Positions 1,356 to 27,421 of a stretch of 27,421 nucleotides of DNA are shown here, piece by piece. Positions within the stretch are counted from its first letter, which is position 1, and each line of letters opens with the position of its first letter. The notes below the pieces were generated by a model. That model did not search any database. It saw only the letters and a list, made by a program, of their open reading frames with translations, and was not told where the DNA came from. The stretch comes from a virus: the IMG/VR virus record IMGVR_UViG_3300023202_000015, positions 1-27,421 of that record; one strand, given 5' to 3'. The position numbers and the translations under genes are program-made.

Positions 1356-2666
1356 TTAAACTGAAACCGTTCCGTTTACGGTTACCTCATGTATAGCACC
1401 TGAAAGCGTTGCTGAGAATGTTACATCGTTCAACTCACGATTTGACTTGTCGGCGGTAGACCTGTCCGCATTTAGGGGAACAGTCACAACCGGCGCCGGA
1501 TCGGAAGCCAGCCCTCCGACTGCTATTCCGTCCTGCAATTGTGCAGTAACATCCGCCTCAATGGCTGCAATACCGCCGTCCGTTCCGGGAACCTTGTCGT
1601 TATTTACAAGAGTACTGAAAATTCTCTCCGTCATGCGGGCCTTTAACCAGTCAACAAATACGATAACATCGAAAAACTCACCCTCTCCGACCGTTCCATT
1701 ACAAGTGATGTTCACACCGCCGGTAAGCTGGTAGAAGTTTGCGTTTTTGTCGGATATGTTCTTCTGTTGTGTGCTCGTTAGGTTATTCACCGTCACGCTT
1801 GCAATAGTTTTGAATTTTCCGGTATATGAACCGGGGTCAAGAGGCAAAAGCCTACCTAGGTATCCGGCATCCAGAAACTCCGTGGCGGCTTCTTTGTGGT
1901 AAAATACCGATGTTCTCGCCAGGCTCTGGGCCTTCGCATATCCGGCAATGGTCTGACTGGCCCCGGTATCGGCTGAATCACTCAAATCCGCTATATCGGC
2001 GTCTGCACTGGATGTTACGAATACCTTAAGTTCGGATTCGGTCCAGTCCATTACGGACTTAACATCGGTCTCATCGCGGCTGGTAAATACCAGACCATAC
2101 CAATCCGAATCCGCTTCATTGATTGCTGTCAAATCCGCTGAAATAGTGGCGGAGGTTGTGAAGGCGATAGAGCACTTTGAATCAACCTTAACGGCGTAGG
2201 CCGTGCCGGCAACATCAGGGTCGAGATTGAAGGTTCCATCCGTATTATCGATTGCCCCTACATTGATTGAACCCTCACCGTTAATATCAGAAACGATTTC
2301 TCCGGCTATATCGATAGCTGTTGATCCAGAAGCCACAGTTGTAATAGTAACACCATCAATAATCGTGGTGTACGTTGCGCCGGCAGTGGCGGTATCAACG
2401 GTAACAACCGATGTATCCGCAGTGTCACGCCTGGATATGGCCAATTGGGTTATCTGCGGATTCTGTGCAAAGGCATCAGAAGCGGCCACGTGTTCAGCAT
2501 CGGTAGTATTGAAGTCGCTCGAAACCTCGGAAAGGCTGGAATAAAATTTAATCCGTTCCGCGAAAGCTTTGTTTGTTCCAAATACATTGATAGTACCGAA
2601 TCCAACCCGGCTCACAGATGTGGTTTCCCGGGTTATCGAAACATTTACAATATCCTTCAAGCTCAT
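1356..2666 (-). CDS. contractile tail sheath protein, DUF3383-like
   Basis: A 436-residue protein opening MSLKDIVNVSITRETTSVSR, the characteristic start of DUF3383 proteins, now regarded as tail sheath subunits. The middle carries an alternating Asp/Ala/Thr beta-rich insertion (about residues 85-185, including GVTITTVASGSTAIDIAGEI), and the C-terminal third has WLKARMTERIFSTLVNNDKVP followed by a conserved-looking SNRELNDVTFSATLSGAIHE. Sheath subunits surround the tube and contract on infection. A GGAGAAATTATT ribosome site precedes the ATG. The adjacent tube gene and tail terminator support a contractile tail. Confidence 0.85.
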   Translation of the reverse strand: MSLKDIVNVSITRETTSVSRVGFGTINVFGTNKAFAERIKFYSSLSEVSSDFNTTDAEHVAASDAFAQNPQITQLAISRRDTADTSVVTVDTATAGATYTTIIDGVTITTVASGSTAIDIAGEIVSDINGEGSINVGAIDNTDGTFNLDPDVAGTAYAVKVDSKCSIAFTTSATISADLTAINEADSDWYGLVFTSRDETDVKSVMDWTESELKVFVTSSADADIADLSDSADTGASQTIAGYAKAQSLARTSVFYHKEAATEFLDAGYLGRLLPLDPGSYTGKFKTIASVTVNNLTSTQQKNISDKNANFYQLTGGVNITCNGTVGEGEFFDVIVFVDWLKARMTERIFSTLVNNDKVPGTDGGIAAIEADVTAQLQDGIAVGGLASDPAPVVTVPLNADRSTADKSNRELNDVTFSATLSGAIHEVTVNGTVSV

Positions 2667-4951: not shown

Positions 4952-5878
4952 TTAAATACCCTCAAGGATGTTAGCAGACAAGGGATAATAGAATTGTACC
5001 CCGGCAATTCGTGACATAGTGTTCACAACAAATTCAAGGTTTCGTTCCTGAACCGGAAGCATCTCAAAAGCACTGGGGATTTCAAGAGTCAACTTATCAG
5101 CCCGTTTCGTGTATGCAAAAGCAACATCCGACGGACCCGCGCCACCACTCGGTAACGGCGCAACGGCTTTCAATTCCGGAATAGGTTCAACAGTAACACC
5201 AGGCTGGTTCTTCAAAAAGAATTCCAGGATAGTGGTGTCACTTGCCGTTGATTTCTGAGTAGTAGAAATCAATGTAAATTGAGCGAAAGGCAGAAGAATG
5301 GTATCCGGCTTTTCAACTCCGTTTGTATTGTCAATAGGATCGTTGATAAGGCTATTGAGATCATCAATAATCTCATCAACTGTCGCAGAAGCCCAAGCGG
5401 TTCCAGCCGTAGCAGTAGGAATACCGTGACCTTGGCTTAACATTCCCAAAAGTCCGGAATCCGGATCACCAAACCACGCGAGGTTATTCACCTTCTGTTC
5501 GTTTGATTGTCGGGTTGCCGTTGCCTTCATCTGTTGCAGAGGTCTTCCAGCCTTTGAGGCGTTTCGGACTTCCATGATGTTATAGCCAAAGCTTCCGCCG
5601 ATGGTCTTAACATTGATGGTAAATTCCTTTCCAAATACATCAGACCGGGGAAGGTCATCGGCGTAATTTGAAATGATTTTGGCCATTCCAACCCGGTCAA
5701 AAGATCGGTATGTAATGGTCTCCGCACCAGCTCCGGCACTGGAATCTACAGGGATTAGCCGTGTAGCCGTGTACTCTGGATAAAGTACATTGTAGACCTG
5801 AGCCTTTACGCTTTCCAACTCCCTTGCGAAAAATGCCGATTCCCCAGCATCCAGGTGTGTAAATTTTTGAACGTCCAT
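4952..5878 (-). CDS. major capsid protein, DUF2184-like
   Basis: A 308-residue protein with a strong GGAG site. It begins MDVQKFTHLDAGESAFFARE, followed by YNVLYPEYTATRLIPVDSSA and a long acidic and glycine-rich strand region with RSDVFGKEFTINVKTIGGSF. The C-terminal part has FAYTKRADKLTLEIPSAFEM and ends with an AGVQFYYPLSANILEGI strand. These segments match DUF2184 major capsid proteins of HK97 fold (N-arm, E-loop, P- and A-domains). Position directly after protease/scaffold and cement genes confirms it as the shell subunit. Length is normal. Confidence 0.88.
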   Translation of the reverse strand: MDVQKFTHLDAGESAFFARELESVKAQVYNVLYPEYTATRLIPVDSSAGAGAETITYRSFDRVGMAKIISNYADDLPRSDVFGKEFTINVKTIGGSFGYNIMEVRNASKAGRPLQQMKATATRQSNEQKVNNLAWFGDPDSGLLGMLSQGHGIPTATAGTAWASATVDEIIDDLNSLINDPIDNTNGVEKPDTILLPFAQFTLISTTQKSTASDTTILEFFLKNQPGVTVEPIPELKAVAPLPSGGAGPSDVAFAYTKRADKLTLEIPSAFEMLPVQERNLEFVVNTMSRIAGVQFYYPLSANILEGI

Positions 5879-5911: not shown

Positions 5912-6676
5912 TTAAGGGAGGTTGATTTCTACTTTTGCCAGTTTAGTGCTTGAATCGTATGTAAGTACAGTGCCTCCGGTCGATACATTTCCGGTGGATA
6001 CACTGGTAACCTTACCTTTTTCAGCCCCTCCGATGGCTACATTGATGTATACATCGTCCTCGGCTTTAAGGGTTCCCTGGTTCGATGTTTCAACAAGTGC
6101 CCATAAGACTCCCTGACGCATAACCGAAACGGATTCTTCATCCTTGTATTCGGCATCGTTAAGCCCAACCCCGGACGGTTCCTTATGTATATGCACTGCA
6201 AGACCAACAAACTTCTCGATAGAAGATTGAGCCTGAGTCCATGTACCTTGAGAAGCCCCGCCCGTGGTAACTGCGGAGGCCGAAATAGCTACCCCTTCAT
6301 CACCAACGATAACAATATCCCTTCCTGTGCCTGCATAAGTTGCTGTATCGACACCGGCAAGAGCAGCGATCTTAGTTGCGATGGCGGCCATAGTTGTTTC
6401 GTGATCCGTTGCAAATACCGTTGCCGTGGTGCTGTTTCCGTTTACCGTTGCGACTGTGGAGTTACTGGAAATCAGATCCGCATCAATGGAAAGAATACTT
6501 TGATTAAGTACCGGCATACGAACCTGGTTCTCTTTGTCGGTTCCTCCGACAAGTCCATAGCCAAAAGGAATATCTTCCTCGGCCAGCCTTGAAACCACAC
6601 GGTCAAAGCCTGAATCCGCCTTCATTCCGGGAAATGCGACTGGGGCGTTTTGGGGGTATGATGTTTGTACAGACAT
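5912..6676 (-). CDS. capsid cement / decoration-type structural protein
   Basis: A 254-residue protein immediately before the capsid gene. It starts MSVQTSYPQNAPVAFPGMKA and has a repeated-looking Ala/Thr/Val beta region (residues about 80-150, including ATVFATDHETTMAAIATKIA) and a C-terminal DDVYINVAIGGAEKGKVT strand pair. The 'YPxxxPVAFPGMxAD' opening and the late 'VLWALVE' strand are typical of structural cement proteins (gp24-type) that brace capsid joints. The central 80-170 insertion looks like an added beta domain. Structural role well supported by position; the precise family is inference. Confidence 0.68.
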   Translation of the reverse strand: MSVQTSYPQNAPVAFPGMKADSGFDRVVSRLAEEDIPFGYGLVGGTDKENQVRMPVLNQSILSIDADLISSNSTVATVNGNSTTATVFATDHETTMAAIATKIAALAGVDTATYAGTGRDIVIVGDEGVAISASAVTTGGASQGTWTQAQSSIEKFVGLAVHIHKEPSGVGLNDAEYKDEESVSVMRQGVLWALVETSNQGTLKAEDDVYINVAIGGAEKGKVTSVSTGNVSTGGTVLTYDSSTKLAKVEINLP

Positions 6677-6705: not shown

Positions 6706-7842
6706 TTATTTGTTTTCACCCTTCCAGGCGTTATGCAAGTTCTCGATCATTTTTTCACGGGCTGCATTTGAATCGACACGATCGTCCTTTTTACCGGCTG
6801 AATCGGTTTTAATCTTCTGACGCTGATCCTTGATTCCGTCTTCTTTCTTGGAACCAAGTTCAATGTATGCATCGAAACGTGAGTCAATATATACGTCGTC
6901 TTTACCTTCCATGTCGGCGTCGGTATGCTTTGCGATCACGGCAAGCTTAATTTCTTTGTCGCTCATGCTGTCCAATTTCTTGACCTCTTCCTCATCCAGG
7001 TGAGATTTGGCAGATTCTACCAGCTTTACACGTTCGGAAACGCCCTTTCGGATCAGGTCATTAACATCGACCTTTTTGAGCTTTTTCAACTCTTCTTCCT
7101 GGGTGTCAAACTTAGCCTGCAATGCGGACTTTTCGCTTTTCTCTGTTTCCAGTTCTTTTGAAATGGAATCGTTTTTTGTCTTGGCGGCTTCCAACGCTTT
7201 CGCAACCTCGGGGCTGCCCTGGTAGCTGAGTCCGTCCAAATTGATTTGAACCAATTTCTCGCTCATATCGTTTCTCCTGTGTTTTTGGGCAGATATATCG
7301 CCCGTTAATTGAATTGCATCTTTTGAATCAAGTGAAATCTTTGCCCGGGAACCCGCCCTTGCAAAATCAACAATAGCCAGGTGATTGTACCGGATGTTAG
7401 TCTGACGGGCATCATAAGGCTCACCGTCATATACACCGGGATCCATAACTAAATCCGTATCATATCCCAGGCTGAGTTCTCGGGTTCCATCCTTGACTGT
7501 TTTAACGGCTTCATCGTCATTAATAACAACCGGCACACGGACAAATTTACCGTCCGGCTCTATCTGCTGCCCCGTACTTCCTACTTTAAGCTGCTTGGAG
7601 TTTTCGGAATTAACAAAACCCTGATCCGGGTGCATGTTAGTGATGGGAATCATGGATAGTGTATCCAGGCTTGCCCTTTCAAATACATCGTCCGGGTGTC
7701 TTAATTCCCTGCGAATACTCCCGTCTGAGTTCTGATACAGGAATATTCCGGTACGGGTGACGACTGGATTAGCCTTTAAATAACCTTCCTGGGTTATTTC
7801 AGTGAATTTCACTTCGCCGATGTCAAAACGTCTCTCGCTCAT
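6706..7842 (-). CDS. prohead protease-scaffold fusion, DUF2213
   Basis: The start is set at the ATG with GGAG four bases before (7850-7847), giving 378 residues beginning MSERRFDIGEVKFTEITQEG. The first 180 residues carry DUF2213 features: FLYQNSDGSIRRELRHPDDV, IPITNMHPD, RELSLGYDTDL and YNHLAIVDFARAG. Such proteins are maturation proteases. Residues about 205-265 form a Lys/Glu coiled coil typical of scaffolding, followed by a charged tail. The likely product is one polypeptide with protease at the N-terminus and scaffold at the C-terminus that guides capsid assembly and is then cleaved away. An internal ATG near 7267 (MSEKLVQINLDGL), preceded by a GGAG-like site, could also make a separate scaffold. 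Confidence 0.83.
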   Translation of the reverse strand: MSERRFDIGEVKFTEITQEGYLKANPVVTRTGIFLYQNSDGSIRRELRHPDDVFERASLDTLSMIPITNMHPDQGFVNSENSKQLKVGSTGQQIEPDGKFVRVPVVINDDEAVKTVKDGTRELSLGYDTDLVMDPGVYDGEPYDARQTNIRYNHLAIVDFARAGSRAKISLDSKDAIQLTGDISAQKHRRNDMSEKLVQINLDGLSYQGSPEVAKALEAAKTKNDSISKELETEKSEKSALQAKFDTQEEELKKLKKVDVNDLIRKGVSERVKLVESAKSHLDEEEVKKLDSMSDKEIKLAVIAKHTDADMEGKDDVYIDSRFDAYIELGSKKEDGIKDQRQKIKTDSAGKKDDRVDSNAAREKMIENLHNAWKGENK

Positions 7843-7852
7843 TTTTCTCCAT

Positions 7853-7888
7853 AAAAAAAGCCCCAATACCGGTTTAGGGTATTGGGGC
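7853..7888 (-). terminator. intrinsic terminator just upstream of the protease gene
   Basis: A perfect 11-bp stem, GCCCCAATACC (7860-7870) against GGTATTGGGGC (7878-7888), with a 7-base loop, followed on the minus strand by seven T residues (7859-7853). This is a textbook rho-independent terminator for minus-strand transcription. Its T-run ends ten bases before the ATG at 7842 and abuts the GGAG site, so it would block reading from the packaging genes into the head genes unless overridden. Confidence 0.8.
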
Positions 7889-7931
7889 CTTCGATACACT
7901 CCAGAAAAGGATCAAACTGCCTTTGAATACA

Positions 7932-8013: not shown

Positions 8014-8043
8014 TTGTGAACTGAGTGTGAACTATTGTATATT
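8014..8043 (+). promoter_or_regulatory. weak sigma70-like promoter for the tRNA
   Basis: TTGTGA (8014-8019), an 18-base spacer, then TATATT (8038-8043), preceded by TG. The start site would fall at about 8050, essentially on the first base of the tRNA, so either the primary transcript has almost no leader or the true promoter is elsewhere. It is the only recognisable plus-strand promoter next to the tRNA. Confidence 0.3.
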
Positions 8044-8048
8044 AACAT

Positions 8049-8123
8049 CGCGGGGTGAGGCAGCGGAAGCCTACCGGGTTCATATCCCGGATGTCCTGGG
8101 TTCGAATCCCAGTCCCGCTACCA
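8049..8123 (+). tRNA. tRNA with CAU anticodon, initiator (fMet)-like
   Basis: All arms fold. The acceptor 8049-8055 pairs with 8113-8119 except at the first pair, which is C1-U72. The D stem is AGGC/GCCT, the anticodon stem CCGGG/CCCGG with loop TTCATAT (anticodon CAT at 8081-8083), the variable loop ATGTC and the T arm CTGGG-TTCGAAT-CCCAG. Discriminator A and CCA are encoded. The unpaired C1-U72 end and the three G-C pairs next to the anticodon loop are hallmarks of bacterial initiator tRNA; elongator Met or Ile2 remain possible. It is the only convincing plus-strand gene in the window and ends one base from the stop of the opposing small gene at 8125. Confidence 0.9.
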
Positions 8124-8124
8124 A

Positions 8125-8289
8125 TTACATCGATTTTCTTAAGTCTTTTCTCGAATAAACGGATATATGGGCAATTCCGCCTTGATTCATCTTCAATGTT
8201 AGTGACATCTCACCGGTGAATTTATTCTCATTGTGGTCACGTATTTCCTTAAGAATAAGCTCAAGGTCTCTTTGTAGGTTTTCGTTCAA
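8125..8289 (-). CDS. small hypothetical protein (54 residues) after the MuF gene
   Basis: I place the start at a TTG (8289-8287) that overlaps the MuF stop as TTGA and has GGAG five bases upstream. The open frame extends upstream to 8337, but that part overlaps MuF coding sequence. The protein begins MNENLQRDLELILKEIRDHN and ends with a strand-like HISVYSRKDLRKSM. It is a helix followed by two strands, with a polar surface. Function unknown; translation is probably coupled to the MuF gene. Confidence 0.6.
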   Translation of the reverse strand: MNENLQRDLELILKEIRDHNENKFTGEMSLTLKMNQGGIAHISVYSRKDLRKSM

Positions 8290-9146
8290 AGCTGCTCCAG
8301 GACTGGGGTGAAATCTGGCTGGGCGATACATCGGCAATTTACGTCCTCTCCCGGGTGCCCGGTTACCGCCGGAGGATTATCCCATGCGAATTTTTTATTG
8401 TTGTTTGCCCGATGTGTGGGCCTAACCCTTTCGTCACCAGCCGTCACCCATATGTATTCTTTGACTCCAATCCCCTCCTGCTTCCGCTGTGCGAGCTGGC
8501 TGTTTAACTTGGACACCTGGTCACGGCCTATCAGTTTAGCCCGGTTCTTGGATACGCCGATCTGCTTTTGAATCTCTTTGGCAATTGTCTCATGCCTGGA
8601 GCCGTTTCTAAGCCCACGCTGTACTATTCCGTCAACCTTGGCGATGTAATCGGACTCCATGTTGGTGATTAGAGTTACATTCTCTTTAACGAAGGAATCC
8701 ATTAACGGGGTTAGCCACGGCTGGCTTTGGAAAAACGAAACACCAACGGCGCTTTTTTGTATCTTTTCCCACTGCTTTTCATTAAACTCATTAGTATTTT
8801 GACCGACATTCTCCGCCACCTGCTGTTTTGGGAATTTCAGTGCTGATATTCCGGATGTTAATGACAATATCATCCTATTTGCGGAATCCCCAAAACTGTC
8901 GGTTCGCATTAATTCAATATCAGCTTCGGATACCAATGATGGAAGATTTTTAATCAAAATTTCTTCTGTCAACCTATCCCATTCAGATACATAGTCCAAC
9001 AATGCCTTTTGATAGGCCCTTTCAACAGGAATTGGAACCAGCCATTTAGATGTAGGCGTTGCCTTTAATTTTTTTACGCCAAGGGACTTACGCCTTCGGT
9101 TTATCTCTGCAATACGTGGATCGTTTTGGTCAATCCTTCTTATCAT
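8286..9146 (-). CDS. minor head protein, MuF-like morphogenesis domain
   Basis: A 286-residue protein whose C-terminal third has the Mu gpF signature: IGRDQVSKLNSQLAQRKQEG, then VKEYIWVTAGDERVRPTHRA and HPGEDVNCRCIAQP. The N-terminal two thirds are helical. MuF-type proteins are minor head components packaged with the genome, sometimes carrying effector domains; none is obvious here. The preceding Zn-ribbon gene overlaps its start by 17 bases. Confidence 0.85.
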   Translation of the reverse strand: MIRRIDQNDPRIAEINRRRKSLGVKKLKATPTSKWLVPIPVERAYQKALLDYVSEWDRLTEEILIKNLPSLVSEADIELMRTDSFGDSANRMILSLTSGISALKFPKQQVAENVGQNTNEFNEKQWEKIQKSAVGVSFFQSQPWLTPLMDSFVKENVTLITNMESDYIAKVDGIVQRGLRNGSRHETIAKEIQKQIGVSKNRAKLIGRDQVSKLNSQLAQRKQEGIGVKEYIWVTAGDERVRPTHRANNNKKFAWDNPPAVTGHPGEDVNCRCIAQPDFTPVLEQL

Positions 9147-9336: not shown

Positions 9337-9519
9337 CTATTCTAAAAGTTCTTTTTTCTTTATTTCCAGCCACATATCAAAATGAATCGGACTTGGTTCT
9401 AAACCAGGTACGCTTTCCTGACACCAGAAATAATCAAACTCCTGGTAATGTGACGCACATAAAACTGTCCCTTTTTCCTGTGGTTCGTTACAACCATGGA
9501 CTTTACAATCATTATCCAT
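9337..9519 (-). CDS. small Cys/His-rich hypothetical protein
   Basis: 60 residues with a CKVHGCNEPQEKGTVLCASH pattern (two spaced Cys pairs and two His), which could bind zinc, followed by an aromatic acidic segment (YQEFDYFWCQE) and a helix. It overlaps the end of the DUF1353 gene by eight bases and lies just before the zinc-ribbon gene. Function unknown. Confidence 0.65.
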   Translation of the reverse strand: MDNDCKVHGCNEPQEKGTVLCASHYQEFDYFWCQESVPGLEPSPIHFDMWLEIKKKELLE

Positions 9520-9919: not shown

Positions 9920-11278
9920 TTATTCCCCTTCCGGTTTTGGGCCTGAAACGTCTTCTTCTTCAGGTATCGGTAAAAGTGAATCACGTTCCTCTATACTAAC
10001 ATCCTCAAGAAGCAAGTCCGGGGAATACTCGTCACCGCCGAACCGGGATACTGCAACCTCGCCTGGGGTTAGGACTCCGGTATTGATGTATATTGCATCT
10101 GTTTCAGCGATCATCTTCCTTGTTTCTGCCCGTTCCTTTTCTGTTGGTTGCCATAGTGGGTTAAATTCAATTGACCAATTTTCAATCTCTTTGCCACCTG
10201 TGGGACCGGACTTCGATAACATAACCAATCTGGTTATTATCTCCATGTTCTTTTGTAGCCTGTCCACCTGTTCGGATCTGATGTTGTCATACCAAAATCT
10301 TATATCAGAGGCCCCGGTAGCGGATAGACCTGCCGGAGCCTGTCCCATAAGCAATGTATAGGGTGTTCCGGTAACAGCAGACAAAGCCAATGCATACCTA
10401 TCCATCAACATATCAAGCCCGGATACGCTGGAAGCCTTTTTCTCGTACTTTTCATTGGTATCAATGATTGCAGTATTCATTATATGACGACTTAAATCCA
10501 ATATATTAAGCCTATCTTTTACCACTTTATCATTTCCAGATACAATCAATTCCTGCAAGTTGTCAATTGAAATCACGGTCTGAATAAAATCTTCAATGAT
10601 GTTCTTACCGGAGTAATATACATTTCCTAAATCTTCCAACTGGCGGTAGAGTGATTGATATATCGAATCTCCCCATCCTTCATTGTTCTGACGTGTCAAA
10701 TCGTCTACATCCATTCCGTCAAATATCAAAACACGTGACCAATGTACTTTTATTTCAACCGTTGGAACGCTGACTATGGGATATATACGATAGTATTTAG
10801 GTTTTCCATATCGTTTCTTCTCCGGGTCTGATTCTAAATCCCCCGGCATCCATGTAACACGGTGTCTTTGATATACCCTTAACTCTTCAATTTCCTGAAT
10901 TGAATCTTCCCGTAACTCATCTTCAAAGGTTCCTCCATCGTTTACGACCATTAACATCAAAGAACCGCCATATGTAAACGCCTGCTGCAAAGCCTTCATG
11001 GTTACTTTCTTTGTGTCGAGATAGAATAGATCTGAATTTACTTCACCTGATGTATCTCCTGAAATATTGAACCATTCACGTACCATTTCCTTTGACCTCA
11101 AGTCTACAACACGGCGAGAAAACCCCTCGTTCCGGTATAAGTTCCTGGCCATGTCCTCGGTTATAATTCTGTCAGCCGCAAAGTCTCCGTTTACATGCCT
11201 ATCCTTTCCCGATACACCTTGTCCGGTTAAAATGTTCTTCCATCCGTCAAAATTGAATATTCTTTTCATTTTACTCAT
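9920..11278 (-). CDS. portal protein, DUF1073 type
   Basis: A 452-residue protein. Visible features are RIITEDMARNLYRNEGFSRR near the N-terminus, YGGSLMLMVVNDGG around residue 105, WSRVLIFDGMDVDD, and the family core LMGQAPAGLSATGASDIRFW followed by ENWSIEFNPLWQPTEKER. The portal is the dodecameric ring through which DNA enters and leaves the head. No C-terminal phosphodiesterase (Acb1-like) domain is seen; the protein stops after an acidic tail. The start overlaps the upstream DUF5675 stop as ATGA. Confidence 0.9.
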   Translation of the reverse strand: MSKMKRIFNFDGWKNILTGQGVSGKDRHVNGDFAADRIITEDMARNLYRNEGFSRRVVDLRSKEMVREWFNISGDTSGEVNSDLFYLDTKKVTMKALQQAFTYGGSLMLMVVNDGGTFEDELREDSIQEIEELRVYQRHRVTWMPGDLESDPEKKRYGKPKYYRIYPIVSVPTVEIKVHWSRVLIFDGMDVDDLTRQNNEGWGDSIYQSLYRQLEDLGNVYYSGKNIIEDFIQTVISIDNLQELIVSGNDKVVKDRLNILDLSRHIMNTAIIDTNEKYEKKASSVSGLDMLMDRYALALSAVTGTPYTLLMGQAPAGLSATGASDIRFWYDNIRSEQVDRLQKNMEIITRLVMLSKSGPTGGKEIENWSIEFNPLWQPTEKERAETRKMIAETDAIYINTGVLTPGEVAVSRFGGDEYSPDLLLEDVSIEERDSLLPIPEEEDVSGPKPEGE

Positions 11279-11679
11279 AAATGTTCCGTTATTGTTAAAT
11301 GCAGTTTATCCGATGTGGTGGTTTTTTTCATAAACTCCTGAAACATAGATTTACTATCTATGATAGCCTGGTCTCCGTAAAGTTCACCGAAGTATCTAGC
11401 CAATAAGATACATCCCTGAGTATTATGCACACGGTTACCCCAGTGAAACAGGATGTTACTTCTACCCGGAACGTCCATTACTTCCCATGTATATCCGTAT
11501 TTAGGAGATTTTACAATTTGGCACATGTATTGACCCGGAGGTATTTGTGATTTTCCAACCTGGTTAAAGTTATCAGGTGGCTCTAATGTAGGGCACAAAG
11601 GTATTTCATTAAGTTTCAATACCCCAAAGCTACCATATACATGGGATTCGCTAAACCTTATTATTCTTGCAAAATTCAT
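11275..11679 (-). CDS. DUF5675 protein (candidate lysis-associated)
   Basis: The start is the ATG at 11679 that overlaps the terminase stop (TAATG), rather than an in-frame TTG at 11685. The product is 134 residues beginning MNFARIIRFSESHVYGSFG, with LCPTLEPPDNF, IPPGQYMCQIVKSPKYGYTW, FHWGNRVHNTQGCILLARYF. The pattern 'TLE-PP-N, IPxGxY, H.GN....GCILLG' is that of DUF5675, which resembles a small cell-wall enzyme fold. It lies between terminase and portal, an unusual place if it works in lysis. No signal peptide is visible. Confidence 0.75.
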   Translation of the reverse strand: MNFARIIRFSESHVYGSFGVLKLNEIPLCPTLEPPDNFNQVGKSQIPPGQYMCQIVKSPKYGYTWEVMDVPGRSNILFHWGNRVHNTQGCILLARYFGELYGDQAIIDSKSMFQEFMKKTTTSDKLHLTITEHL

Positions 11680-12911
11680 TACCAAGCCGTCAGTTTAGTA
11701 TAATCTAAATATTCTTTGCCATACATGCTATGTAGAAAATACCGGAGGAAATCTACACAATGATCGTTTACCTTCATTGGCTTATCTTCTCCCCTCTCCG
11801 CCGCCTTCGGATCCCATACATACCCCAAAAACTCCTCAATTGAATGTTTACATGCGTCTGAAATAGCGAACTCACCGTTTTTCAACAACCTTGCAACCGT
11901 CCGGATTCCGTCCAAGACCGAGTTGTCGGCATCCGTAACACCGAAGAACCCATCTCTCCTAAGCTGAGTGTGGAATGATTCCGCCGATGGATCGCCGAAA
12001 ATCTTCACCAACTTATCTTTTCCTATAAATTCCTTTAGGTCTCTTGAATATTCCCCGTCCGTTTTTTGCCGGTTCTGCTCACGGCCTGAGTAATAATATT
12101 CTCTTTCAAGCCAAATCCTTGGCAATGTATCTGGATTAACCCCGAATATTCCGAATGCAAATGCGTTCTGTGTGCCGTAATCAAAGGCTCCGTACTTCAA
12201 TTTTGCTTTTGGCAGGTTGCTGCTGCTGATAACATATGGCGGTTTTTCCTCGAAAAAGTCATATATAGCCCCTTCTGCCTGTACCCAATGCCCTAGGATG
12301 AACCTCTTATAATATAGTCCCGTGAATTGTTGTTTCAGGCCCTCGATGTATGTCTTGGGTAGGAATACATTATTTTCAATCGGCCAATAAAACTCATTTA
12401 TTCCCAATGTATCTGCCTTATCAATGTAATCGGTCTTGAGGTAGTGTTTTGGAGCTCCAGGGTTGGTTGTGTAGAATCCCATTGCTCCTTCAACGGAAAG
12501 CCGCATTTGTAACTGCTTAAAGAATGATTCCGGCCAAAGACTGACCTCATCCCCAAACGCTCCCCGGCATGTTATTCCCCTTATTTTTTCCTCTGCCCTT
12601 TCGTCATTTGCCCCATATAGCTCTATTTCTTCACCAAACAAGTCGGCCTTGTGGCTTCCAATTGAATAATTGAACTCACTTCCGAGATAATCTTTCATTG
12701 GGTCCAGTATGTTAGCTCTAAGTGTCCTTTCCGTCTTTCCGGCCATTACCAGTTTTGATCCAGCTTCGGCTGGTGGGGCATCTTCTGCGATGTATTCAAT
12801 CCATCTCAATATTTGTGACACGGTCTTTGCGGATCGGACCGGGCCGTGCCATAGGTTAATCTTTGCCTTGGATTTATGTATGGACTCCGCTTGATCCCGA
12901 AACAGCTTCAT
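11679..12911 (-). CDS. terL: terminase large subunit
   Basis: A 410-residue motor protein that pumps DNA into the head. Visible motifs are the Walker A variant GPVRSAKT (residues 23-30), an acidic pair in GAFGDEVS (D121, E122) as Walker B/catalytic Glu, and the RNase H-like nuclease acidic residues D244 in AFDYGTQNAFAFG, D307 in FGDPSAE and D383/D387 in VNDHCVDFLRY. It is of normal length for the PBSX/XtmB-like group. The start overlaps the small subunit stop as ATGA. Confidence 0.93.
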   Translation of the reverse strand: MKLFRDQAESIHKSKAKINLWHGPVRSAKTVSQILRWIEYIAEDAPPAEAGSKLVMAGKTERTLRANILDPMKDYLGSEFNYSIGSHKADLFGEEIELYGANDERAEEKIRGITCRGAFGDEVSLWPESFFKQLQMRLSVEGAMGFYTTNPGAPKHYLKTDYIDKADTLGINEFYWPIENNVFLPKTYIEGLKQQFTGLYYKRFILGHWVQAEGAIYDFFEEKPPYVISSSNLPKAKLKYGAFDYGTQNAFAFGIFGVNPDTLPRIWLEREYYYSGREQNRQKTDGEYSRDLKEFIGKDKLVKIFGDPSAESFHTQLRRDGFFGVTDADNSVLDGIRTVARLLKNGEFAISDACKHSIEEFLGYVWDPKAAERGEDKPMKVNDHCVDFLRYFLHSMYGKEYLDYTKLTAW

Positions 12912-13450
12912 GTAAGTGCCTCATCCACCATGGTTTTAATGGATTGAAGTATAATTCCTTTGGAAGAGGATGAAGGTTTATCCAATCCCCTGGCGTGTTT
13001 CCACCTGTCCCGTTTGCGGTTTGTGAGGAAAAAGAAAATTGCAGTATCAGATGGCGGCATGTATTTCTTATACTTTCGTTGTATAGCATGGCTTTCCCCC
13101 GTGAACTTTCCGTCCTTACTGATTTTACCCCTTCGCTCTATGACGGTTTCTTCGTAGTAAAAGCCCTCTGCCTTCTTTAAAAGGGAGTTTTCAACTCGTT
13201 CACATAGTTTATCGTCCGATTCGTCCCTACCTTTTTTTATGGCACCCGAAAACGCCCCCATGTTGTCGTCCAATGTAGACAACGCAATACCAATTGCTTT
13301 CGCAATTTCTTTGTGGCTTAACCCTTTTTTTGCTCCGATGTATGCTGTATGTATGTGCTCTTCGGACGGAACATACTTTGGCCTTCCGGTTTTTTTTGGA
13401 TTGGGTTTCTTTTTCGGCTTTGATTTTTCCGTAGGTTTCTTTTTATCCAT
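12908..13450 (-). CDS. terS: terminase small subunit
   Basis: A 180-residue DNA-binding subunit. A basic N-terminal tail (KSKPKKKPNPKKTGRPKYVP) precedes an HTH-like segment, KKGLSHKEIAKAIGIALSTL (residues 45-65), then a charged helix (KKGRDESDDKLCERVENSL), a KGRISK-type strand pair and a C-terminal segment likely to contact the large subunit. The ribosome site AAGAGG lies wholly inside a hairpin arm (13453-13474), so initiation may be controlled. Confidence 0.85.
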   Translation of the reverse strand: MDKKKPTEKSKPKKKPNPKKTGRPKYVPSEEHIHTAYIGAKKGLSHKEIAKAIGIALSTLDDNMGAFSGAIKKGRDESDDKLCERVENSLLKKAEGFYYEETVIERRGKISKDGKFTGESHAIQRKYKKYMPPSDTAIFFFLTNRKRDRWKHARGLDKPSSSSKGIILQSIKTMVDEALT

Positions 13451-20022: not shown

Positions 20023-20682
20023 TTATAATTTTTTAAATACTTCCAATAATTGTTTTATTTCTGACAACGTAAACTTTTTGCCGTCAATTTCTATTGTATC
20101 CTCTGATTTTTCATATACATCAATACCGCTTATCTCTTTAAAAACCTTGGCATCAAAATTAGGTAGTTTGAAGAGTAGTGCTCTGTCTTCATCCGACGCA
20201 CTATCCCAAGAGCGTTTAAACGCTTCTTTGTAATCATATACCTTCAAATATCCTTTACATACATGGAATGACGGGTTTTCGATTTTCTCCTGTTCCGACA
20301 TTTTATCTTCTTCAATCCACTCAGTTAAATCGAAGAATAAAAATTCTGGTTTTTTAGCTTTATCCCATTCCTCTTTTGTGCAGGGCTTGTTAAAAGCCCC
20401 ATAGCCAGCATAGTCTATAGTGCTAAAATGCCCAGTACTGTAATTTGATTTTGACCAGTCTCCAGTTGAACAGTCTCCAGTTGACCAGTTTCCAGTTGAC
20501 CTGTCTCCAGTTGAACAGTCTCCAGTTGACCAGTATCCAGTTGACCAGTTTCCAGTTGACCAGTTTCCAGTTGACCAGTATCCAGTTGACCTGTCTCCAG
20601 TTGAACAGTCTCCAGTTGACCTGTCTCCAGTTGAACAGTCTCCAGTTGACCTGTCTCCAGTTGATGTTTTATTTCCTGACAT
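20023..20682 (-). CDS. STG-repeat protein with folded C-terminal domain
   Basis: 219 residues. After MSGNKT come 14 exact pentads STG-[D/N/Y]-[R/C/W], then three degenerate ones (residues about 77-91), then an ordinary acidic/aromatic domain (EEWDKAKKPEFLFFDLTEWI, FHVCKGYLKVYDYKEAFKRS, a final helix ending LLEVFKKL). Five-residue periodicity with T/G/N is reminiscent of beta-solenoid proteins such as pentapeptide-repeat DNA mimics, though the motif is not A(D/N)LXX. A perfect GGAGG site precedes the ATG. It overlaps a second open frame across the repeats (20415-20822). Function unknown. Confidence 0.75.
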   Translation of the reverse strand: MSGNKTSTGDRSTGDCSTGDRSTGDCSTGDRSTGYWSTGNWSTGNWSTGYWSTGDCSTGDRSTGNWSTGDCSTGDWSKSNYSTGHFSTIDYAGYGAFNKPCTKEEWDKAKKPEFLFFDLTEWIEEDKMSEQEKIENPSFHVCKGYLKVYDYKEAFKRSWDSASDEDRALLFKLPNFDAKVFKEISGIDVYEKSEDTIEIDGKKFTLSEIKQLLEVFKKL

Positions 20683-20822
20683 ATATCCTCCTTTTTTGTA
20701 AAATCCAAAGTTATATTCCCATCCACTGCCAACTGTATCACTATCAAAGCGTGCTCTCGTTTTGTACGTGACAGATAAGCCAGGTTGTGGACGATGTTGT
20801 TTATTAGTGATTGTTTATTCAA
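20415..20822 (-). CDS. overlapping hypothetical protein running into the STG repeats in another frame
   Basis: A TTG start overlaps the stop of the 20815-21228 gene. The first 45 residues look natural (NKQSLINNIVHNLAYLSRTK, then LIVIQLAVDGNITLDFTKK). The frame then crosses the ribosome site of the STG gene and stays open through the 15-bp repeats as QLETGQLETVQ pentads to 20415. The front part probably encodes a real small protein; whether translation truly continues through the repeats, giving 135 residues, is unclear. Confidence 0.45.
   Translation of the reverse strand: MNKQSLINNIVHNLAYLSRTKREHALIVIQLAVDGNITLDFTKKEDICQEIKHQLETGQLETVQLETGQLETVQLETGQLDTGQLETGQLETGQLDTGQLETVQLETGQLETGQLETVQLETGQNQITVLGILAL
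20455..20664 (-). repeat. 14 tandem 15-bp repeats encoding STG pentads
   Basis: Each unit reads TCAACTGGA-NAC-NNN on the minus strand. The first nine bases are invariant in all 14 copies; variation is limited to the first base of codon 4 (G, A or T) and to codon 5 (AGG, TGT or TGG). Near-identity of units indicates recent expansion by slippage or unequal exchange. Because the unit is 15 bases, several frames stay open. Confidence 0.92.
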
Positions 20823-21228
20823 AGTATACACCCGATATTTCATGCGCATAATTGTAACCGCTTGCACATTCCGGGCAGACAAAATAATCCAACTCCCCAT
20901 ATACTGTCACCATGGTTTCAGGGCGATAGTCTTTAATTTTATTTAACGCAAAACAACTTCTACACGTCAAACTATCGCTCTCCCAATCCTCGTTTTTATG
21001 CAATTCTACCAACAAATGGTTATCAAACTCCATTTCAGAAAATTCGCCGTTTCTCATTCGTTGCCGGATATTAAACACAAAATCATTGGCCGATTTTCCT
21101 ATGTATGTATTGCCAGCTGGGTTTGTGATTATTTTATCCCCATTGTTTTTATTTTTCCAGATGATTTCCTCAATTTCATCCTGACTCAAATCCCGATAAC
21201 CTTTGATTTGTTTGTGTTGATTATCCAT
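20815..21228 (-). CDS. hypothetical protein with 'IKGYRDLSQDEI' motif and zinc site
   Basis: 137 residues with GGAGAGAG before the ATG. It starts MDNQHKQIKGYRDLSQDEIE; this IKGYRDLsxdEi segment is frequent in small phage proteins and often begins longer unrelated ones. The C-terminal half has CRSC and FVCPECASGY, four cysteines fit for zinc, and KSANDFVFNIRQRMRNGEFS in the middle. Function unknown. A twin hairpin precedes it. Confidence 0.7.
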   Translation of the reverse strand: MDNQHKQIKGYRDLSQDEIEEIIWKNKNNGDKIITNPAGNTYIGKSANDFVFNIRQRMRNGEFSEMEFDNHLLVELHKNEDWESDSLTCRSCFALNKIKDYRPETMVTVYGELDYFVCPECASGYNYAHEISGVYFE

Positions 21229-27000: not shown

Positions 27001-27421
27001 GGAACACCTCGGATGTATGTGCTGGTTTTGGTATTTCGTCTTCCCAGCATTTACCGTTCAGGTAGGTCAAAGGGTTCTTACGGTATTGTTTGTCTGGGTT
27101 AGCCTGGATGTATGCTATCAATGTTGTTTTAATTGAATCTAACTCTTCCTTCTTTAAGGAAAAGAACTTCTTCTTACATTTCAGCTTATCCACCTTTTTA
27201 CCATAAACATCAAAGAACTTCTGGAACATATCCTCTAAAACTTCTGGAGGATAAGCTAGTTTCTTTGATGTTGTTTTAGATAATGGTGATGGTGATGGTG
27301 ATGGTGATGGTGACGGCTTACCCTGTAGGTTATCCTGTGCTAAACCTGTAGGTTTACCTGTAGGTTTACCTGTAGGTTTACCTGTAGGTTTACCTGTAGG
27401 TTTTTTTGGCCTGCCACCTTT
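26993..27421 (-). CDS. replication initiator/loader-type protein, C-terminal part (runs off the window)
   Basis: The frame is open to the window edge, 142 residues visible, so an ATG at 27229 is internal. The start visible here, GGRPKK, is followed by five KPTG units, a linker and five SP units, then the folded part LAYPPEVLEDMFQKFFDVYG, KKEELDSIKTTLIAYIQANP and QYRKNPLTYLNGKCWEDEIP. This last domain (helices ending 'yrKnPltYLNgkcWeDei') is the C-terminal domain of phage replication organisers/helicase loaders. It sits immediately before the helicase. The N-terminal DNA-binding part lies outside the window. Confidence 0.8.
   Translation of the reverse strand, partial: KGGRPKKPTGKPTGKPTGKPTGKPTGLAQDNLQGKPSPSPSPSPSPLSKTTSKKLAYPPEVLEDMFQKFFDVYGKKVDKLKCKKKFFSLKKEELDSIKTTLIAYIQANPDKQYRKNPLTYLNGKCWEDEIPKPAHTSEVFHD
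27284..27313 (-). repeat. five 6-bp repeats (TGGTGA)
   Basis: Five exact TGGTGA units on the plus strand encode Ser-Pro dipeptides in the replication protein. A sixth degenerate unit (CGG) follows. Confidence 0.9.
27344..27403 (-). repeat. five 12-bp repeats (ACCTGTAGGTTT)
   Basis: Five perfect 12-base units encode KPTG repeats in the replication protein; a degenerate copy lies at about 27321. The unit holds the near-palindrome ACCTGTAGGT, so the array could also bind protein. Confidence 0.9.

Follow-up and report, generated by a model that had tools for sequence, protein, structure and literature searches.

It has long been debated why phages carry tRNA genes, and a lone initiator is not easily accounted for by codon supplementation. 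The locus described here has a single tRNA gene, which shows initiator features and lies among phage head genes on the strand opposite to theirs. The window that we analyzed, a stretch of 27,421 bases, is a linear-classed IMG/VR virus contig that represents a fragment of a myovirus genome, comprising head and tail genes and an early region.

An intact initiator-type tRNA gene

ARAGORN identifies a single tRNA in the window, tRNA-Met(CAT), and positions 8049-8120 match the Rfam tRNA family with 52.7 bits (E = 7.7e-9). The minimum-energy fold of the RNA from 8049 to 8123 is an exact cloverleaf of −31 kcal/mol.

8049 to 8123, plus strand: initiator-type tRNA-Met(CAU) gene, 75 nt, CCA encoded (ARAGORN, Rfam, fold, sequence reading and scripted rule)

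Initiators are distinguished by a purine at position 11 paired with a pyrimidine at position 24 (R11:Y24), whereas elongators carry Y11:R24, and the acceptor-stem pairs G2:C71, C3:G70 and G4:C69 are determinants of formylation. The window tRNA has G11:C24 and all three of these acceptor-stem pairs. Positions 1 and 72 form a C1·U72 mismatch rather than a Watson-Crick pair, and the anticodon stem (CCGGG/CCCGG) provides three consecutive G:C pairs at 29-31:39-41. With U33, A37, A73 and the encoded CCA also present, the sequence passes our scripted rule for a strict initiator. This is a complete initiator-type tRNA gene in which all tested identity features are intact, and formylation and use in the P site would follow from its identity determinants.

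The original prediction, made from the sequence alone, was correct in its coordinates, strand, encoded CCA, C1-U72 end and GGG/CCC stem. It had allowed that the gene might instead be an elongator tRNA-Met or a tRNA-Ile2(CAU). Either would need a paired 1:72 and Y11:R24, and both are ruled out by C1·U72 and G11:C24, which are of the initiator type. The sequence itself is divergent, in that an exact search of viral contigs with the 5' half of the tRNA gave no match and the best full-length phage match is 75%.

The tRNA gene lies antisense within the head module

All functionally assigned genes of the window are on the minus strand, and the tRNA is on the plus strand. Protein profile scans and inspection of the surrounding sequence yield the following arrangement, given in minus-strand order.

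12908 to 13450, minus strand: terS (protein profile scan)
11679 to 12911, minus strand: terL (protein profile scan)
9920 to 11278, minus strand: portal (protein profile scan)
8286 to 9146, minus strand: head morphogenesis gene, upstream of the tRNA site (phrog_324, E = 2e-71)
8125 to 8337, minus strand: 70-codon opposing gene, orf70 (open reading frame with a homologue at the same place in relative L135)
7850 to 7892, minus strand: strong hairpin with T-run, immediately upstream of the protease ribosome-binding site (z = −4.6; similar in relatives L135 and L462)
6706 to 7842, minus strand: head maturation protease, downstream of the tRNA site (phrog_530, E = 2e-94)
5912 to 6676, minus strand: virion structural protein (protein profile scan)
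4952 to 5878, minus strand: MCP (protein profile scan)
1356 to 2666, minus strand: tail sheath (protein profile scan)

The stop codon of orf70 (TAA, 8125-8127) is separated from the end of the tRNA by the single base 8124. Both the antisense placement inside the virion gene run and this one-base spacing had been noted at the outset and are upheld. Because a homologue of orf70 is present in L135 (31%, E = 6e-4 by tblastn), this small gene is probably real. It is plausible that an antisense copy of the tRNA is co-transcribed in the minus-strand message. On that strand the hairpin with its T-run falls after the tRNA and just before the protease gene, and it is possibly a conserved terminator or attenuator that splits the head operon.

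Upstream of the tRNA, a pattern search finds one candidate promoter.

8014 to 8043, plus strand: sigma70-like candidate promoter TTGTGA-18-TATATT, its end 5 nt upstream of the tRNA (pattern match)

Chance alone would give 1.8 such matches in this region, against the one observed, and we therefore reject it as strong evidence. For viral initiator tRNAs as a group, −10-like hexamers occur directly upstream of 20%, compared with about 7%, an approximately 3-fold enrichment. Judged from these patterns, the window tRNA probably has its own plus-strand promoter.

Elsewhere in the window, the region from 20023 to 20900 (minus strand) contains overlapping open reading frames in which short repeats appear in two frames, as STGDR/STGYW and LETGQ/LETVQ, and the right end (27229-27421) carries tandem GATGGT and ACCTGTAGGTTT repeats.

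Syntenic relatives retain the boundary and lack the tRNA

The most syntenic relatives are L135 and L462. L135 is a phage contig that had been binned with a Nanoarchaeota MAG, and its TerL, portal, protease and MCP match those of the window at 47%, 45%, 45% and 51%, respectively. L462 matches at 44% for portal and 50% for MCP. The order terL, portal, morphogenesis gene, protease and MCP is common to all three. In both relatives a hairpin followed by a T-run closes an intergenic gap just ahead of the protease gene, as in the window (L135, 13870-13915; L462, 5457-5505), and L462 has at the position of orf70 an open reading frame that is similar by eye. Neither relative has a tRNA, so that the conservation in relatives for which the original prediction had looked is not borne out in this lineage.

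Because these syntenic relatives keep the gene order and the boundary without the tRNA, the window tRNA appears to be a mini-gene (moron) whose gain or loss took place at a transcription boundary that was already there, formed by orf70, the hairpin and the protease gene. The initiator type recurs in many unrelated phages, as described below, which favors a mobile moron over an artefact.

A TerL relative, L003, carries an antisense tRNA-Met at 9397-9472 (minus strand), about 1 kb downstream of terL. This contig was considered as a conserving relative and rejected, since the anticodon stem of its tRNA is CAG/CTG and not of the initiator type. A megablast search with 25 kb of the window found no match among named phages. 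The TerL relatives span Bacillota, Actinomycetota and other groups, and point to no single host group.

Initiator-type tRNAs recur in phages

To the original prediction, phages seldom carry initiator tRNAs, a statement that proves too strong. We searched with a pattern combining the anticodon and T arms, GGGYTCATANCCC-N11-GTTCRANTC, in which GGG/CCC, U33, CAU and A37 are fixed. The pattern gives at least 120 matches in IMG/VR, and a narrower version that requires U32 with U38 or C38 also gives at least 120. Named phages carry initiator-type tRNAs as well, often without annotation. Such a tRNA follows terL in Pseudomonas phage PaMx74, Janthinobacterium phage Donnerlittchen, Stenotrophomonas phage QDWS359 and Xanthomonas phages Elanor and DoCa5, and precedes terS in Sinorhizobium phage phiLM21 and Streptococcus phage Javan59. 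Among IMG/VR contigs, it lies between terL and portal in L015, adjoins MCP in L056, L082 and L254, and adjoins terS in L106, L227 and L237.

The tRNA of QDWS359 is annotated as tRNA-fMet. The terminase-adjacent initiator-type tRNAs of PaMx74, Elanor, DoCa5 and Javan59 are unannotated in their GenBank records (L333, L337, L338 and L340). The initiator-type tRNA of Donnerlittchen (L334, 4000-4076) has the loop CCCAUAA with C33, a base otherwise typical of eukaryotic initiators.

Initiator loci lie by head genes in 7-8 of 24 cases, compared with at most 3 of 23 tRNA-Arg(UCU) loci. Although not significant, this difference is suggestive of a preference of phage initiators, relative to other tRNAs, for sites next to head genes. 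Fully antisense neighbors were found at 5/38 and 2/50 viral initiator loci and at 0/23 tRNA-Arg loci; antisense placement of an initiator tRNA is thus unusual, but not unique.

Positions 32 and 38 of the loop vary among viral initiators

The anticodon loop of the window tRNA (UUCAUAU) carries U32 and U38.

8079 to 8086, plus strand: anticodon loop U32-U33-C34-A35-U36-A37-U38, with C39 (U32 and U38 versus cellular C32/A38)

When position 38 was left open in the pattern, all 203 cellular initiators recovered from three phyla had C32/A38; this sample comprises genomes with a pattern match (54/61, 38/60 and 47/61), so some initiators were missed. C32/A38 is not normally listed among the features that define initiators, and the window tRNA departs from it. 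A dedicated search for non-A38 initiators in bacterial genomes returned 0/299, 0/299, 0/149 and 2/148. Together with 61 genomes of the open-38 sample, these four sets cover 956 genomes from five phyla (phyla as inferred by us), among which only two non-A38 initiators occur. Both are within prophage head modules, one between the portal and head morphogenesis genes (L465) and the other directly after the major head protein gene (L466).

In viral contigs, 26 of the 108 unique tRNAs among the matches listed are non-A38 (Fisher p = 1e-13 versus 0/203), a fraction that would be diluted by any host flanks that IMG/VR contigs may carry. For strict viral initiators among the matches listed, the count is 10/69 (p = 7e-7 versus 0/203). 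The viral changes at 32/38 yield pyrimidine pairs only (C-U, U-C and U-U), and no G38 occurs in the 108 listed sequences.

We also examined the 91 unique viral U32/Y38 tRNAs listed. Open 1:72 is found in 87/91, G2:C71 in 74/91 and C3:G70 in 71/91, and since the search pattern has no such requirement, these initiator features are conserved. The class is nonetheless heterogeneous: in about 40 of these 91 tRNAs the 11:24 pair is unclear or of the elongator type. The window tRNA is of the strict kind. Apparent hybrid initiators, which combine an open 1:72 and GGG/CCC with Y11:R24 and either U32/C38 or U32/U38, are seen in L015, L028, L042, L056, L059, L082, L106, L229, L230 and others. As judged from these sequence comparisons, the U32/U38 loop is without counterpart in the sampled cellular initiators outside prophages, and this is a new observation.

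Possible roles of the phage initiator

We tentatively favor, at somewhat under an even chance, the explanation that the window tRNA is a self-contained phage initiator moron that replaces or adds to the host initiator pool and perhaps survives nuclease attack. Such an RNA would be transcribed from its own plus-strand promoter at the existing boundary in the minus-strand head operon. Host enzymes would process it, host MetRS would charge it, and after presumed formylation it would be used for initiation during infection. Pyrimidine pairs at 32-38 are compatible with the geometry of tRNA anticodon loops, and the altered pair should therefore keep it. In Shigella and Salmonella, VapC cleaves tRNA-fMet at the bond that joins A38 to C39 (PMC4105405). 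The base 5' of this bond is U38 in the window instead of A38, although VapC is an enteric enzyme and may not be that of the host. Because the A38 next to the VapC-cut bond is gone, the window tRNA may escape cleavage and stay active once a nuclease of this type destroys the host initiator. The idea gains indirect support from the change of position 38 in the window tRNA and in roughly one viral initiator in four, against only two prophages among the cellular genomes searched. Since A38 is retained in the other three quarters of viral initiators, evasion at this position cannot be the general reason for carriage. A broader proposal, which we consider doubtful, is that phages evolved a distinct initiator class, marked by a pyrimidine 32-38 pair, virtually absent from cellular bacteria, in place of C-A. 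Carried as a lone moron in or beside head and packaging modules, it would take over initiation when host defense nucleases cut the cellular initiator at 38/39.

It is also possible, though we think it unlikely, that the tRNA simply raises initiator supply for the late burst of translation and that its loop differences are functionless drift. The intact identity features agree with a dosage effect, as does the finding that phage initiators recur in modules for late functions, packaging or the head, and dosage with drift remains live because most viral initiators keep A38. This account nonetheless leaves unexplained the variation at position 38, which is seen in viruses but, across 956 cellular genomes, in two prophages only, as well as the restriction of the changes to pyrimidine pairs, with no G38 in the 108 listed sequences. 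Moreover, the window tRNA runs opposite to the late genes, and so is not simply co-expressed with them. A recently acquired passenger, tolerated in an intergenic gap without benefit, is less probable still. Absence of the tRNA from syntenic relatives, the natural gap between transcription units that it occupies and the lack of a close relative of its sequence in viral contigs and named phages all suit a passenger, but the retention of every identity element despite wide divergence (75% to the best full-length phage match) would be unexpected if the tRNA were unselected.

Two further explanations appear very improbable. One is regulatory overlap, in which the boundary that precedes the protease and capsid genes would be controlled by transcribing the tRNA or by its antisense copy in the head message. 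The tRNA converges with the minus-strand unit, and the strong hairpin lies just before the protease; yet the hairpin and boundary are present in relatives without the tRNA, and a complete initiator would be unnecessary for such control. Equally remote is tRNA-dependent lysogeny, in which the phage integrates into the host initiator gene and its own copy complements the loss, as mycobacteriophages are known to do with other isotypes (PMC10865867). The tRNA sits in the head module, however, and no integrase was found among the 20 scanned proteins of this incomplete contig. An integration-site role like that in cyanophage P-SS2 likewise found no support.

A class of viral initiators that is set apart by a single base at an established nuclease cut site, and that occurs in the bacterial genomes searched only within prophages, makes evasion testable by a single-base comparison. 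Such a class would also supply candidate orthogonal initiators for translation work and a sequence signature for prophage-borne initiators.

Comparison with known systems

Changes in the anticodon loops of phage tRNAs have been proposed to confer resistance to host anticodon nucleases (van den Berg et al. 2023, PMC10264068), and the window tRNA resembles that set in having a base changed beside a known nuclease cut (38/39). The comparison made here is with enteric VapC enzymes, which may not be those of the host. According to the main text of the same article, phages exposed to S. flexneri VapC generally do without a tRNA-fMet gene, and we found there no initiator class with an altered position 38 (PMC10264068).

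PaMx74, Donnerlittchen, Elanor, DoCa5 and other named phages share with the window a usually lone initiator-type tRNA by terminase or head genes. In these four, as in QDWS359 and L015, the tRNA is in sense orientation, in contrast to the antisense tRNA of the window. Several named phage initiators have altered anticodon-stem G:C pairs, whereas the window tRNA keeps GGG/CCC, and its 17-nt anticodon arm is identical to that of L015.

The likeness to bacterial tRNA-fMet extends to the open 1:72, G2:C71, C3:G70 and G4:C69, R11:Y24, the three stem G:C pairs, CAU, U33, A37 and CCA. Relative to E. coli tRNA-fMet, which has C1·A72, A11:U24 and a longer D loop, the window tRNA has C1·U72, G11:C24 and a shorter D loop. 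It differs from all sampled cellular initiators in carrying U32/U38 in place of C32/A38. Lone phage initiator tRNAs are already known; what is new is the variant loop at 32/38.
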